NCBI GenBank assembly: GCA_016281295.1
Contig: JAEEII010000234.1
Coordinates: 1 to 5,618 of the forward strand
DNA length: 5,618 bases
From: Bacteroidales bacterium
GTDB lineage: Bacteria; Bacteroidota; Bacteroidia; Bacteroidales; F082
Direction of reading: 5' to 3'
Position 1 is the stretch's first letter. Every line of letters begins with the position of its first letter. The position numbers and the translations under genes are program-made. The notes under the pieces were generated by a model. That model made no database searches and had not been told where the DNA came from. It was given only the letters and a program-made list of their open reading frames with translations. Shown one piece after another: positions 1-5,618 of this stretch.

Positions 1-703
1 TGGCGTTGATTTCCTGACCGAAGATACTCAGGTTCTTGATGTCGCCTTGATGATGGCGAACGAAGTCGGCACTCTGGACAAACATGCCACCGCTTCCCAT
101 GGCTGGGTCGTAGCAGCGGCCTTTGTAAGGCTGCAGCACCGCCACAATAGTTCGGACGATGCAACTGGGCGTGTAGAATTCTCCAGCGTTCTTGCCTTCG
201 AGCGAGGCGAACTTGGAGAGGCAGTATTCGTATGTACGACCTAAAAGGTCTTTGTTCTCTTCCTGTTTGCCCAGCTCGATGGTGTTGGTGAAGAGATCGA
301 CCACATCACCCAAGCGGCGCTTGTCCAATTCCGGACGGGCGAAGTTTTTGGGCAGGATACCTTTCAGGCGGTTGTTCTCTTTCTCAATTTCCATCATGGC
401 ATTGTCGATGACCTTGCCAATCTCTGGAGTGTGAGCCGCTTCGGCAATGACGCTCCAGCGGGCATCTTCTGGCACGTAGAAGATGTTTTCGGACACATAT
501 TCATCCTTATCCTCCTCGAAGCCATCACCTTCATCGACCAGTTGTTGGTGTTTCACGTCGAAACAGTCGGAGATGTATTTCAAGAAGATGAGGCCTAGCA
601 CCACGTTTTTATACTCTGCCGCGTCGATGGAACCGCGCAGCAGGTCAGCTGCTTTCCATATCTTGTCTTCAAAGCCAATGTCGGCTGTATTTGTCTTGGC
701 CAT
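1..703 (-). CDS. hsdM: Type I restriction-modification DNA methyltransferase subunit M (HsdM), C-terminally truncated by the window edge
   Basis: The reading frame begins at an ATG at 701-703 and stays open to the left edge, giving 234 residues of a protein that normally has about 500. It would be the N6-adenine methyltransferase subunit of a type I restriction-modification complex, working with HsdS (specificity) and HsdR (cleavage). The N-terminal helical domain is recognisable from IWKAADLLRGSID (about residues 15-27) and LGLIFLKYISD (36-46). The linker LLGRTYEYCLSKFA lies at 153-166 and the FYTP motif at 176-179. The SAM-binding motif I, DPAMGSGGMF, is at 199-208, followed by IFGQEIN (227-233). 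All of these are intact. The catalytic NPPF motif would lie beyond the edge, so completeness cannot be judged. The hsdS and hsdR genes, if present, would be downstream to the left. The gene is divergent from the aspartokinase gene. Family assignment is very secure; activity and specificity are unknown. Confidence 0.95.
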   Translation of the reverse strand, partial: MAKTNTADIGFEDKIWKAADLLRGSIDAAEYKNVVLGLIFLKYISDCFDVKHQQLVDEGDGFEEDKDEYVSENIFYVPEDARWSVIAEAAHTPEIGKVIDNAMMEIEKENNRLKGILPKNFARPELDKRRLGDVVDLFTNTIELGKQEENKDLLGRTYEYCLSKFASLEGKNAGEFYTPSCIVRTIVAVLQPYKGRCYDPAMGSGGMFVQSADFVRHHQGDIKNLSIFGQEINA

Positions 704-2602: not shown

Positions 2603-3238
2603 TTACTTTTTCAGGGAAGTCAACACGCTGGTGCTGAACAGTTCACCTTTTGAATAGGTCTCCATCTTGACTTGACCGATACCACGGGCATACCACACCT
2701 TCAAGGTAGTCTCGTTCTTGATACCCATCACACGTCCTTCAGAGGTTTGCTTCAGCACATAGCACTTGAAAGTGCCGGCTGGGGTAGTGATTTCTTCACG
2801 ATTAACGATTTCATTCTCGGTGATGGTGTTTTTCACACGGAAGCCACCGAGGTCAACGATCATCTCACCCAAAGGCAACTTGTATCCAACGGCGAGTTTG
2901 TTGGGGATACGCAACAATTCAGGATCCGTGGCGGTGAGGTCGATGTTTCCTTGGCCCATCGAAATCATGGCGCTTCCATTACGAACCTCCATGCCCGTTT
3001 CCACGGTGGTCACGGTGCCCCCCGCATTCACGGTGGTTTCCATGACAATGTCGTAATCCATGTCGCTGATCATTTTCACGTCCTTATAAACAGTCGTGGT
3101 GGTACCCGTCTCCTTGCCTTTGGCGTCATAGTCGGTGTAGGTCAGCTCTGCCCCTTTGGTGACACAGCAATAAGGAGTCTGAGCATGGACTTGCATGATT
3201 CCTGTCAGGAGCAGGAATAACAGAAACAATCTTTTCAT
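2603..3238 (-). CDS. Exported beta-rich protein, DUF3108/TapB-like, function unknown
   Basis: This 211-residue protein has a signal peptide (MKRLFLLFLLLTG, cleavage near VHA|Q after residue 19). The mature part alternates beta-strand-like segments rich in Thr and Val: ELTYTDYDAKGKETG near 31-45, then METGMEV-type strands around 66-85. The C-terminal half has the pattern TPAGTFKCYVLKQT (152-165) followed by VWYARGIGQVKMETYSKGEL (181-200). I associate the 'PAGTF.C...' and 'WYA.G.G.VK.E.Y..GEL' pattern with DUF3108/TapB-type exported proteins of Bacteroidetes, which have no firmly known biochemical role. That match is from memory. Three cysteines are present in the mature protein (C24, C25, C159). 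The gene has its own promoter and is the first of a likely two-gene unit with the coiled-coil protein downstream. The ATG at 3236-3238 is chosen because the signal peptide begins exactly there. An envelope or periplasmic role is inferred. Confidence 0.85.
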   Translation of the reverse strand: MKRLFLLFLLLTGIMQVHAQTPYCCVTKGAELTYTDYDAKGKETGTTTTVYKDVKMISDMDYDIVMETTVNAGGTVTTVETGMEVRNGSAMISMGQGNIDLTATDPELLRIPNKLAVGYKLPLGEMIVDLGGFRVKNTITENEIVNREEITTPAGTFKCYVLKQTSEGRVMGIKNETTLKVWYARGIGQVKMETYSKGELFSTSVLTSLKK

Positions 3239-3325: not shown

Positions 3326-4036
3326 ATGAAAATCATCGCCCACATCCACACCGAGTTCCCAACCAAATTCGGCATTCCACGACAGAGCGGCATCGTAGAG
3401 ACGCTACAAGGGACCATCATTTTCGAACCGGAATACCGAAACCCAGAGGCGTTCCGAGGCTTGGAGGAGTTCTCACATCTTTGGCTGATCTGGGAGTTCT
3501 CCGAAGCGAAACGAGACACTTGGTCACCCACGGTAAGGCCTCCACGACTCGGTGGCAACGTACGCAAAGGGGTCTTCGCCACGCGATCGCCTTTCCGGCC
3601 TAATCCCATCGGGCTCTCCTCAGTGAAGCTGGAGCGGGTCGAGATAGACGCGAAGCTCGGACCGGTGCTGCATGTCAGCGGCGCCGACCTCATGGACGGC
3701 ACTCCTATTTTCGACATCAAGCCTTACATCGTCTATACCGACAGCCATCCCGATGCCGTCAGCGGGTTTGCCGGCAAGCCAGCGAATCACCTGCTGGAGG
3801 TGGAATTCCCCGAAGAGCTACGGTTAGGAATCCCCGAGAGACAACAAGAGAGCCTTATCGCCATCCTCGCCCATGATCCGAGGCCTCAATACCAAGATGA
3901 CCCCAACCGAGTTTACGGCATGACATTCGGAGATTATGAAGTGAAGTTTCGCGTTGATGGCAATAAGGTCACCGTCACGGAAGTGACTAAGAATCCATAT
4001 AATTCGCTACATTCACCGAACAGACTAACTCGCTAA
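3326..4036 (+). CDS. trmO: tRNA (N6-threonylcarbamoyladenosine(37)-N6)-methyltransferase TrmO
   Basis: This 236-residue protein matches TrmO (YaeB/TsaA family), which uses SAM to methylate the N6 of t6A at position 37 of ANN-decoding tRNAs such as tRNA-Thr, making m6t6A and tuning decoding. It has the TsaA-type beta-barrel rather than a Rossmann methyltransferase fold. Signatures in order are KFGIPRQSG (14-22), SHLWLIWEF (50-58), RSPFRPNPIGLS (87-98), DLMDGTPIFDIKPY (121-134), DPRPQY (184-189) and RVYG (195-198). Length equals that of the E. coli protein (about 235). The ATG at 3326 is the only ATG before an in-frame stop at 3284 and sits just after the promoter. An overlapping ATG at 3310 belongs to another frame. 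The last 12 bases overlap the end of the convergent rpn gene. The tail after about residue 221 is not conserved as far as I can tell. The gene appears to be a single-gene unit. Confidence 0.95.
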   Translation: MKIIAHIHTEFPTKFGIPRQSGIVETLQGTIIFEPEYRNPEAFRGLEEFSHLWLIWEFSEAKRDTWSPTVRPPRLGGNVRKGVFATRSPFRPNPIGLSSVKLERVEIDAKLGPVLHVSGADLMDGTPIFDIKPYIVYTDSHPDAVSGFAGKPANHLLEVEFPEELRLGIPERQQESLIAILAHDPRPQYQDDPNRVYGMTFGDYEVKFRVDGNKVTVTEVTKNPYNSLHSPNRLTR

Positions 4037-4053
4037 ATCTGTTTCGGTTAGTC
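4016..4053. other. Interleaved inverted repeats at the trmO/rpn convergent junction
   Basis: Two inverted repeats overlap where the two genes converge. CCGAACAG (4016-4023) pairs with CTGTTTCGG (4039-4047), with one bulged base. GACTAAC (4023-4029) pairs perfectly with GTTAGTC (4047-4053). The arms are interleaved, so the stems cross and would be alternatives or form a pseudoknot-like fold. There is no T-tract on either strand, so this is a weak candidate for bidirectional termination or 3'-end protection. It may also be chance. Confidence 0.35.
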
Positions 4054-4378
4054 CTGTGACTTTCCAGATGGTCTCCTTATCTATACCCAAATCAAGCATT
4101 TTACGGGCAGTTTCTTGTTTTTCTTCCGCTATACCAAGTTCTTTCCCTTTCTCCAGTCCGATTTTTTCTCCTTTCTCCAGCCCGATTTTTTCTCCTTCCG
4201 CCCGACCTTCTGCTCGACCTTCCGCTCTTCCTTCTGCTCTTCCTTCTGCTCTTCCTTCTGCTCTTCCTTCTGCTCGACCTTCGGCGAGGCCTTTGGCTTT
4301 ACAAGTACGCATGATGGCCTGTTCAACCCAAACGTTATCGATATTCTTGTAGTAGGCATAGCGTTCCCCTTCGGTCAT
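4025..4378 (-). CDS. Possible internally translated C-terminal Rpn product (RpnS-like antitoxin), same frame as rpn
   Basis: Published work on E. coli Rpn proteins showed that the C-terminal domain is also made separately from a start inside the gene and blocks the toxic full-length protein. Here Met211 (codon at 4376-4378) is preceded by GAGG with a five-base gap, a fair ribosome-binding site for a genome where such sites are usually weak. It would give a 117-residue product: MTEGERYAYYKN, the linker, all AEGR and EKIGLEKG repeats, and the C-terminal segment, but no nuclease residues. Alternatives are Met206 (4391-4393, 122 residues) and Met233 (4310-4312, 95 residues, preceded by CAGG). No internal promoter box was noticed. 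Existence of this product is an inference from family knowledge plus the local sequence. Confidence 0.35.
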   Translation of the reverse strand: MTEGERYAYYKNIDNVWVEQAIMRTCKAKGLAEGRAEGRAEGRAEGRAEGRAEGRAEGRAEGEKIGLEKGEKIGLEKGKELGIAEEKQETARKMLDLGIDKETIWKVTGLTETDLAS

Positions 4379-5008
4379 GCCAGCCTCTTCCATCAGGGCA
4401 ACCGCCTTGTTTGTCAAGGGGTTTTCAATCAACTCTGGCGGGACTGTTTTGGTTGCCCCGTTGATTTCCGTGAGGAAGCGAAGCCACAGGTCGCGCATCT
4501 TGGTCTCTTCTTCGTTTTGGGGTTTGAACTTGGGCAGCTCGACAAAGGCGATGTGGAGACCCTCAATTATTTTGTCCGAATGTTTGTCGTGGACGAGTTG
4601 GTAATAATGGTAGTATTCGTCCTTGGGCAGATCCGTCTCGAAGACATCGTTCACGATATTGAGGGAATAGACAGGCTGAAGAATCTTATATTCCTTTCCT
4701 TTTTCCAGCTGTGAAACGTATGCTTTGGAGGCGTTGAACAAGACGCGCGACTTGAATTCCTCGCTCCACACCATCTGCATCTCAACAACGAACTTGCGCC
4801 CGGCTTTGTCTTTGCATTGTACATCCACAACGGAGAACTTTACGTTGGGGATTTCCGGGATCATCTCGGGGGTTAGATACTCGATGCTCTCAATCACTTG
4901 GTCACCTTTCAGGGGGAGCATGGCGTTCAGGAAACTGAGCAACAGCTCCGCATGTTGTCCGAAGACTTTTTTGAATGTCACGTCGTAACGTGGGTCACAA
5001 TACCTCAT
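4025..5008 (-). CDS. Rpn-family PD-(D/E)XK nuclease (putative transposase/recombination-promoting nuclease) with C-terminal AEGR repeats
   Basis: This 327-residue protein belongs to the Rpn group (PDDEXK_2/TIGR01784-type 'putative transposase'). Those proteins are DNA endonucleases, not true transposases, and E. coli members act as growth-inhibiting anti-phage toxins. Visible signatures are DPRYDVTFKKVFG (5-17), VVDVQ (60-64, Asp62), then VVEMQM (74-79, with E76-x-Q78 in place of the usual E-x-K, as is common in the family) and ASKAYVSQ (93-100). The N-terminal nuclease region reaches about residue 195. A variable C-terminal part follows: seven AEGR units plus AEGE (242-273), two EKIGLEKG units, and a terminal helical segment LDLGIDKETIWKVTGLTETDL. 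Met206, Met211 and Met233 are possible internal starts just before the repeats. The frame is intact and the putative active-site residues are present, so it looks functional. It has its own promoter, a 12-bp overlap with trmO, and no recognisable target-site or terminal repeats marking a mobile element. Family call secure; anti-phage role inferred. Confidence 0.9.
   Translation of the reverse strand: MRYCDPRYDVTFKKVFGQHAELLLSFLNAMLPLKGDQVIESIEYLTPEMIPEIPNVKFSVVDVQCKDKAGRKFVVEMQMVWSEEFKSRVLFNASKAYVSQLEKGKEYKILQPVYSLNIVNDVFETDLPKDEYYHYYQLVHDKHSDKIIEGLHIAFVELPKFKPQNEEETKMRDLWLRFLTEINGATKTVPPELIENPLTNKAVALMEEAGMTEGERYAYYKNIDNVWVEQAIMRTCKAKGLAEGRAEGRAEGRAEGRAEGRAEGRAEGRAEGEKIGLEKGEKIGLEKGKELGIAEEKQETARKMLDLGIDKETIWKVTGLTETDLAS
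4148..4195 (-). repeat. Two tandem 24-bp repeats in rpn (EKIGLEKG units)
   Basis: Units at 4148-4171 and 4172-4195 are identical except for one base (T at 4157, C at 4181). They encode two successive EKIGLEKG octapeptides. A degenerate third unit (KELGIAEE) follows in the protein. Near-identity at the DNA level, including the synonymous positions, points to recent duplication. Each unit contains a run of six A on the coding strand. Confidence 0.9.
4190..4285 (-). repeat. Eight tandem 12-bp repeats in rpn (AEGR minisatellite)
   Basis: Eight 12-bp units encode seven AEGR tetrapeptides and one AEGE. Four central copies (4226-4273) are identical: GCAGAAGGAAGA on the coding strand. Flanking copies differ mainly at synonymous positions (GGT CGA, GGT CGG, GCG). 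As unit length is a multiple of three, gain or loss of copies keeps the reading frame. The last unit overlaps the first bases of the neighbouring 24-bp repeat. Four-residue repeats of variable number are documented in the C-terminal helix of Rpn proteins. Confidence 0.95.
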
Positions 5009-5058: not shown

Positions 5059-5089
5059 CAAAGATAAGGTATATTTTTAAAATATACAA
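5059..5089 (-). promoter_or_regulatory. Candidate rpn promoter (-33 TTG, 20-bp spacer, -7 TATCTTTG)
   Basis: On the minus strand, TATCTTTG (5066-5059) is a textbook match to the TAnnTTTG box. TTG at 5089-5087 lies 20 bases upstream, a good spacing for Bacteroidetes promoters. The box ends 50 bases before the ATG at 5008, so the leader is about 45-50 bases of AT-rich sequence with no Shine-Dalgarno site. This is one of the best promoter candidates in the window. Confidence 0.65.
5069..5087. promoter_or_regulatory. Perfect 19-bp palindrome filling the rpn promoter spacer; possible operator
   Basis: GTATATTTT, one central T, then AAAATATAC form a perfect nine-base inverted repeat. It starts two bases upstream of the -7 box and touches the -33 TTG, so a bound dimer would block RNA polymerase. 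As RNA it would not be in the transcript, which argues for a DNA-binding site rather than a terminator. The AT-rich composition raises the chance of coincidence; the G/C ends and exact placement lower it. No regulator gene is adjacent in the window. Confidence 0.4.
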
Positions 5090-5119
5090 GTGTTTTGACG
5101 AAAAAAATTTCATTATTCT

Positions 5120-5203: not shown

Positions 5204-5618
5204 CTAGTTGATCTTTTTCATGGCCGTCTGCATAATCTTACCGCCTTGATTCATGTCGGCGATATAGACCAAGAGATAGCACTCATCAGCGTTATAGGAC
5301 GCATCCAAAGCACCCGTGACATTGACGGTATATCTTTCCCCCTCAACACACGGTCCATTGCACAACGACTGACCTTGCGCACCATTCAGAGTGCCACGGA
5401 ACACATTGCGGAAGTCATATTCCTGATTCACACCACCAGGTGTCGTCTGCCATCCAATGATATGATCCTCTACCAGACATACCGTGACGGAATAATTTCC
5501 ATTCAACTCAGCCAAAGCCATTGCGGTAGCCTCCACTTGCAGCTGTCGGCTCTCAGCGTCAAACCAATTGGTGATCCGCAACTCGAAGGTCTGATCCTCC
5601 TCTATTGCGGCTTGGACA
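5204..5618 (-). CDS. Omp28-related outer membrane protein, C-terminal part (N-terminus beyond the right edge)
   Basis: The frame is open from the right edge (first complete codon at 5615-5617) to a TAG at 5204-5206, giving 137 residues. A TTG at 5579-5581 could be read as a start, but the upstream frame has no stop, so the gene is cut by the window. The segment NGNYSVTVCLVEDHIIGWQ, then YDFRNVFRG, and near the end a hydrophobic strand ECYLLVYIAD followed by GGKIMQTAMKKIN, fits the C-terminal domain of Omp28-related proteins. These are exported, often lipid-anchored Bacteroidetes proteins whose missing N-terminal half usually contains a thioredoxin-like segment. Three cysteines fall in SLCNGPCVEG and DECYLL, and another in VTVCLVED. 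Function in the family is not established beyond envelope location. The gene ends with a good terminator. Assignment is by remembered pattern, moderately strong. Confidence 0.8.
   Translation of the reverse strand, partial: VQAAIEEDQTFELRITNWFDAESRQLQVEATAMALAELNGNYSVTVCLVEDHIIGWQTTPGGVNQEYDFRNVFRGTLNGAQGQSLCNGPCVEGERYTVNVTGALDASYNADECYLLVYIADMNQGGKIMQTAMKKIN

Follow-up and report, generated by a model that had tools for sequence, protein, structure and literature searches.

The window (the whole stretch of DNA analysed, 5,618 nucleotides of contig JAEEII010000234.1 from the Bacteroidales bacterium assembly GCA_016281295.1) encodes on its minus strand an Rpn family nuclease of 327 residues (rpn, 4025..5008), which is a normal member of this known family of self-restraining defence nucleases. 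The reading that we favour, at slightly better than even confidence, is that of an ordinary Rpn nuclease from the PDDEXK_2 branch, encoded by a single, apparently acquired gene and held in check by pairing of its C-terminal helix-tail domain, with a separate antitoxin being unsupported. A sequence-only reading of the same DNA had instead placed a second gene within the first, with an antitoxin translated from an internal Met codon. From that interpretation, the Rpn nuclease, its intact catalytic residues and the RpnS-like, repeat-variable C-terminus have stood; the internal start has not, as none of the candidate codons Met211, Met206 and Met233 bears a convincing sequence mark of initiation.

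Residues 6-225 (4334..4993, minus strand) constitute the PDDEXK_2 nuclease domain and match the Pfam profile PF12784 (E = 5.5e-47; 160.8 bits versus a curated cut-off of 27.4); the protein is also recovered by the TIGR01784 'Rpn family' profile (E = 5.4e-38; 131.4 bits versus a curated cut-off of 52.1). In matching PF12784 it differs from the E. coli RpnA-E / RpnLS proteins, whose Pfam family we take to be PF04754. The catalytic D62 (4823..4825, minus strand) is retained in all 173 sequences of an alignment comprising 53 locus sequences (the window included, four having been dropped) and 120 listed of the 6777 protein hits. The same is true of Q78 in the E-x-Q motif E76-M77-Q78 (4775..4783, minus strand), with E76 being present in 171 of the 173. 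The profile scores and the PD-(D/E)XK catalytic residues place the protein in the Rpn nuclease family (TIGR01784 / COG5464), and PD-(D/E)XK folds are found among the weak structural matches of its nuclease domain. Reading frame, strand, coordinates and residues are all as first described, including the intact D62, E76 and Q78. Upstream of the full-length start lies a predicted Bacteroidales-type promoter (CTTG, 20 bp, TATCTTTG; 5059..5090, minus strand), recognized by its match to the Bacteroidales consensus, TTTG/TAnnTTTG. Many homologues, P0001 and P0002 among them, are labelled PF27070 in the protein database; a local scan reported no PF27070 match for P0001, P0002, P0013 or P0061.

The nuclease domain is followed, as had been noted, by a repeat-rich C-terminal domain. 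It contains eight four-residue repeats encoded by 12-base units (seven AEGR and one AEGE; residues 242-273, 4190..4285), two KIGLEKG(E/K) repeats (residues 274-289, 4142..4189) and an RpnA-S-like tail (residues 282-327, 4028..4165, all on the minus strand). Structural modelling predicts a long helix over residues 213-306 (about 94 residues), and the tail resembles a solved antitoxin domain, relating this region to RpnS. Repeat number varies between near-identical copies: P0001 is the same protein minus exactly six repeat units (two versus eight) and is otherwise identical over 303 residues. Among 226 protein pairs, which are not independent of each other, with at least 90% N-terminal identity, the length of the C-terminal part is unequal in 171, and in 104 of these the difference is a multiple of four. 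These observations support an RpnS-like, repeat-variable C-terminal domain, and a hypervariable number of four-residue repeats is described for Rpn proteins, including that of Bacteroides fragilis from the same phylum, in the main text of PMC10327210.

The architecture is thus that of the E. coli RpnA-E / RpnLS proteins (COG5464; Zhong et al. 2023, PMC10327210, main text), which likewise combine a PD-(D/E)XK nuclease, a helix extended by repeats and an RpnS tail, show four-residue repeats changing in number and are encoded by a single mobile gene. By analogy, we infer toxicity, nuclease activity and a role in phage defence for the window protein. In the mechanism that we propose, the nuclease would cut DNA during phage infection, while the helix-tail domain would pair with its counterparts in other copies; the number of repeats would set the match between the paired domains, and the pairing would hold the nuclease in check.

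The alternative that the antitoxin is translated from Met211 using a Shine-Dalgarno (SD)-like GAGG has precedent, in that enteric rpn genes, and a C. difficile rpn gene cloned in E. coli, use an internal start; according to PMC10327210, an intragenic antitoxin has been demonstrated for E. coli genes and for this C. difficile gene, produced in E. coli. The in-frame Met codons between the domains are also present as described, namely Met206 (4391..4393), Met211 (4376..4378) and Met233 (4310..4312), with GAGG (4384..4387, all on the minus strand) five bases ahead of Met211, which itself lies two residues ahead of the long helix. We nonetheless reject Met211 and its GAGG as a start signal because of the results of synonymous recoding, the start statistics of the host and the comparison of homologues, and regard translation from this codon as very improbable. 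When the gene was recoded with the same amino acids and gene-weighted codon usage, GAGG appeared exactly there in 36% of recodings (P = 0.36), and some SD-like 4-mer lay upstream of Met211 in 59%. GAGG is frequent by chance because Glu-Ala encoded as GAG-GCN always yields it. Across the sequences compared, an SD-like 4-mer precedes Met211 in seven of the 18 sequences with that Met (7.0 expected), Met206 in eight of 16 (6.3 expected) and Met233 in one of nine (1.0 expected). The claim that GAGG is a more-than-chance signal therefore falls away.

As a positive control we used eight enteric Rpn genes, in which the internal start is proven for the K-12 genes (PMC10327210, main text) and assumed by alignment for four plasmid genes. 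At this position Met is present in 8/8 and an SD-like motif in 7/8 (2.9 expected), with a mean pairing energy of -7.6 versus -4.2 expected. The four K-12 genes have pairing energies of -8.5 to -10.8, whereas those of the four plasmid genes (-5.7 to -6.6) are similar to that of Met211 (-5.8), a point in favour of the latter. Single-gene recoding P values in the control ranged from 0.018 to 0.43, and therefore the test is informative for groups and not for single genes; it would also be less sensitive to an SD-free start. A strong SD precedes the internal start in the four K-12 genes, and the Met is invariant in the eight enteric genes; the window gene has a chance-level motif and a Met that is not conserved across the family.

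The start signals of the host point the same way. In G001, the genome that carries the closest named locus, an SD-like 4-mer is found at 8.5% of 212 predicted starts (longest open reading frame predictions from 20 genome stretches, not annotated starts), more rarely than at 1895 internal ATGs (13.3%), while in E. coli such motifs occur at 60% of 60 annotated starts versus 8.2% of 438 internal ATGs. Ribosomes of Bacteroidia reportedly fail to recognize SD sequences (PMC9976891). McNutt et al. note in the same paper that, in several orders of this class, a strong SD is retained ahead of rpsU or rpsR; SDs may thus serve special genes, which speaks for Met211. Initiation reportedly depends on A bases upstream of the start and on weak local structure (PMC6847099). 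With a start-context matrix from G001, the full-length start Met1 falls at the 61st percentile of starts, and Met206, Met211 and Met233 at the 3rd, 5th and 5th, respectively, so that the contexts of the hinge Met codons are like those of ordinary internal codons. For accessibility, the corresponding percentiles of predicted starts are the 54th for Met1, 13th for Met206, 18th for Met211 and 42nd for Met233. Met206 has an SD-like pairing energy of -7.6, which ranks it among the top 4% of internal ATGs, but it was set aside in view of its poor context and accessibility and its presence as Met in 16/54 homologues.

Conservation of the internal Met codons was assessed in 66 retained sequences, the window included (15 partial, duplicate or start-less records were skipped); counts out of 54 refer to those with at least 40% identity, again with the window. 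The set includes several Verrucomicrobia-type or other non-Bacteroidota records, and some of its members are closely similar. Among the eight sequences with at least 60% identity (window included) Met211 is kept in 8/8, Met206 in 7/8 and Met233 in 5/8. The refuting condition named in the sequence-only reading, a lack of Met conservation in close homologues, therefore applies in part: conservation of Met211 holds among the closest relatives and fails beyond them, with Met211 kept in 13/30 at 50% identity or more, and column 211 containing Met in 15, Phe in 24 and Tyr in 15 of the 54 (Phe/Tyr in 39/54). This pattern would be explained at the protein level by a hydrophobic or aromatic residue just ahead of the modelled helix. 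Synonymous conservation around Met206 and Met211 showed no consistent rise against four homologues (8-14 codons each). In addition, Met211 and Met206 lie 31 and 36 residues ahead of the repeats, which begin at residue 242, as against the 8-20 residues between internal Met and repeats given for published Rpn proteins in the main text of PMC10327210. Taken together, the chance-level motif, a host class that reportedly does not use SDs, Phe/Tyr at column 211 and the poor contexts speak against a separate internal start at Met211, Met206 or Met233. RpnLS is characterized by an internal start codon that is conserved and has an SD-type signal ahead of the repeats, a feature absent here.

A small product could also arise from an SD-independent start, at Met233, a GTG or a TTG, or from a leaderless transcript initiated at an internal promoter. 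Of the hinge ATGs, Met233 alone falls within the published distance range, being nine residues ahead of the repeats, and it is the most accessible of the three. At least one ATG, GTG or TTG lies in the hinge (residues 195-245) of 50/54 homologues, leaving 4/54 with none; the RpnS-like tail would suit such a product, and internal transcription starts are known in E. coli rpn genes (PMC10327210, main text). However, column 233 has Met in 7/54 homologues, the context of Met233 is poor, and 25/54 lack any hinge ATG. No strong TTTG/TAnnTTTG promoter was found in codons 1-233, though synonymous shuffles average none too, and the scan thus has little power. We consider this possibility unlikely, if far less so than initiation at Met211. 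Two further codons were set aside: Met171 (context at the 11th and accessibility at the 34th percentile; Met in 30/54), as it sits within the nuclease domain, and Met304 (4097-4099, minus strand), whose start-like context (67th percentile of starts; accessibility 57th) we read as an A-rich coding stretch, since its product would be merely a 24-residue peptide.

Restraint by self-pairing of the full-length protein appears likelier than a small product from an SD-independent start, and we give it somewhat more weight. Only tentatively do we extend this to the phylum: Bacteroidota Rpn proteins may have no conserved intragenic antitoxin, with the RpnS-like helix-tail restraining the nuclease only within the full-length protein, through repeat-matched self-pairing, because the phylum lacks SD-driven internal starts. 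If this is true, the E. coli gene-within-gene arrangement would be a solution that relies on SDs and belongs to other lineages. Genes of the rpn type are reported from 34 bacterial and two archaeal phyla (PMC10327210, main text); that text reports no translation test in Bacteroidota, and no other report of Rpn small proteins in Bacteroidota was found among the literature matches listed. As protein architecture and repeat variation persist in the window gene and the SD-type internal start does not, it is well suited to deciding between an antitoxin product that the Rpn family requires and one confined to lineages whose starts are SD-driven.

In the window, rpn stands alone between trmO (3326..4036, plus strand), which is convergent with it and overlaps its 3' end by 12 bp (4025-4036), and an Omp28-family gene truncated at the edge of the window (5204..5617, minus strand). 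A search of 172 genomes gave a match in 99, and we compared the trmO loci of the best 30 of these. Aspartate kinase lies in the flank of 15 of the 30, and in five of the 30 so does the pair of genes for a small uncharacterized protein (2162-2593) and a DUF3108-like protein (2603-3238, both minus strand) which, in the window, separates aspartate kinase from trmO. An omp28 relative (29-58% identity) directly follows trmO, at -1 to 49 bp, in ten loci and is farther away in three (L139, 646 bp; L152, 695 bp; L140, 1322 bp), with no omp28 match in the flank of the remaining 17. No rpn match was found within the flanks (up to 1.5 kb) of any of the 30, and an rpn match of any kind occurs in 48 of the 173 genomes in the family to which G001 belongs (G001 counted). 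From these rpn-less loci and the scattered matches it appears that rpn was acquired as a single gene.

The patchy distribution, together with a site that is empty in some relatives and the older label 'putative transposase', which is the name of TIGR01784, might suggest a nuclease free of any antitoxin or defence role, whose main effect is recombination or the spread of DNA. Against this, no transposition hallmarks were found in rpn genes according to the main text of Zhong et al. (PMC10327210), and the likeness of the tail to the solved antitoxin domain argues against a protein without antitoxin function; we hold it to be quite improbable.

The trmO-omp28 junction also differs in other ways, with a 467-residue open frame in L134 and the displaced omp28 of L139, L140 and L152, and judging by these loci it may be a recurrent site of gene uptake. 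In many relatives the match to TrmO stops at about residue 220-224 (of 236), as would be expected if the tail had been altered in the window protein. G001 contains five further distant rpn-type places (C26, C34, C40, C44 and C59), one with an internal stop codon and one at a contig end. A short open reading frame resembling residues 211-327 is interrupted by the end of contig 248 in another genome (G047; L124); it may represent either a truncated rpn or an RpnS-like gene that stands by itself. A partial type I methyltransferase subunit, HsdM (HsdM_N and N6_Mtase domains; 2-703, minus strand), at the window edge is the sole other defence-type gene recognized within the window.
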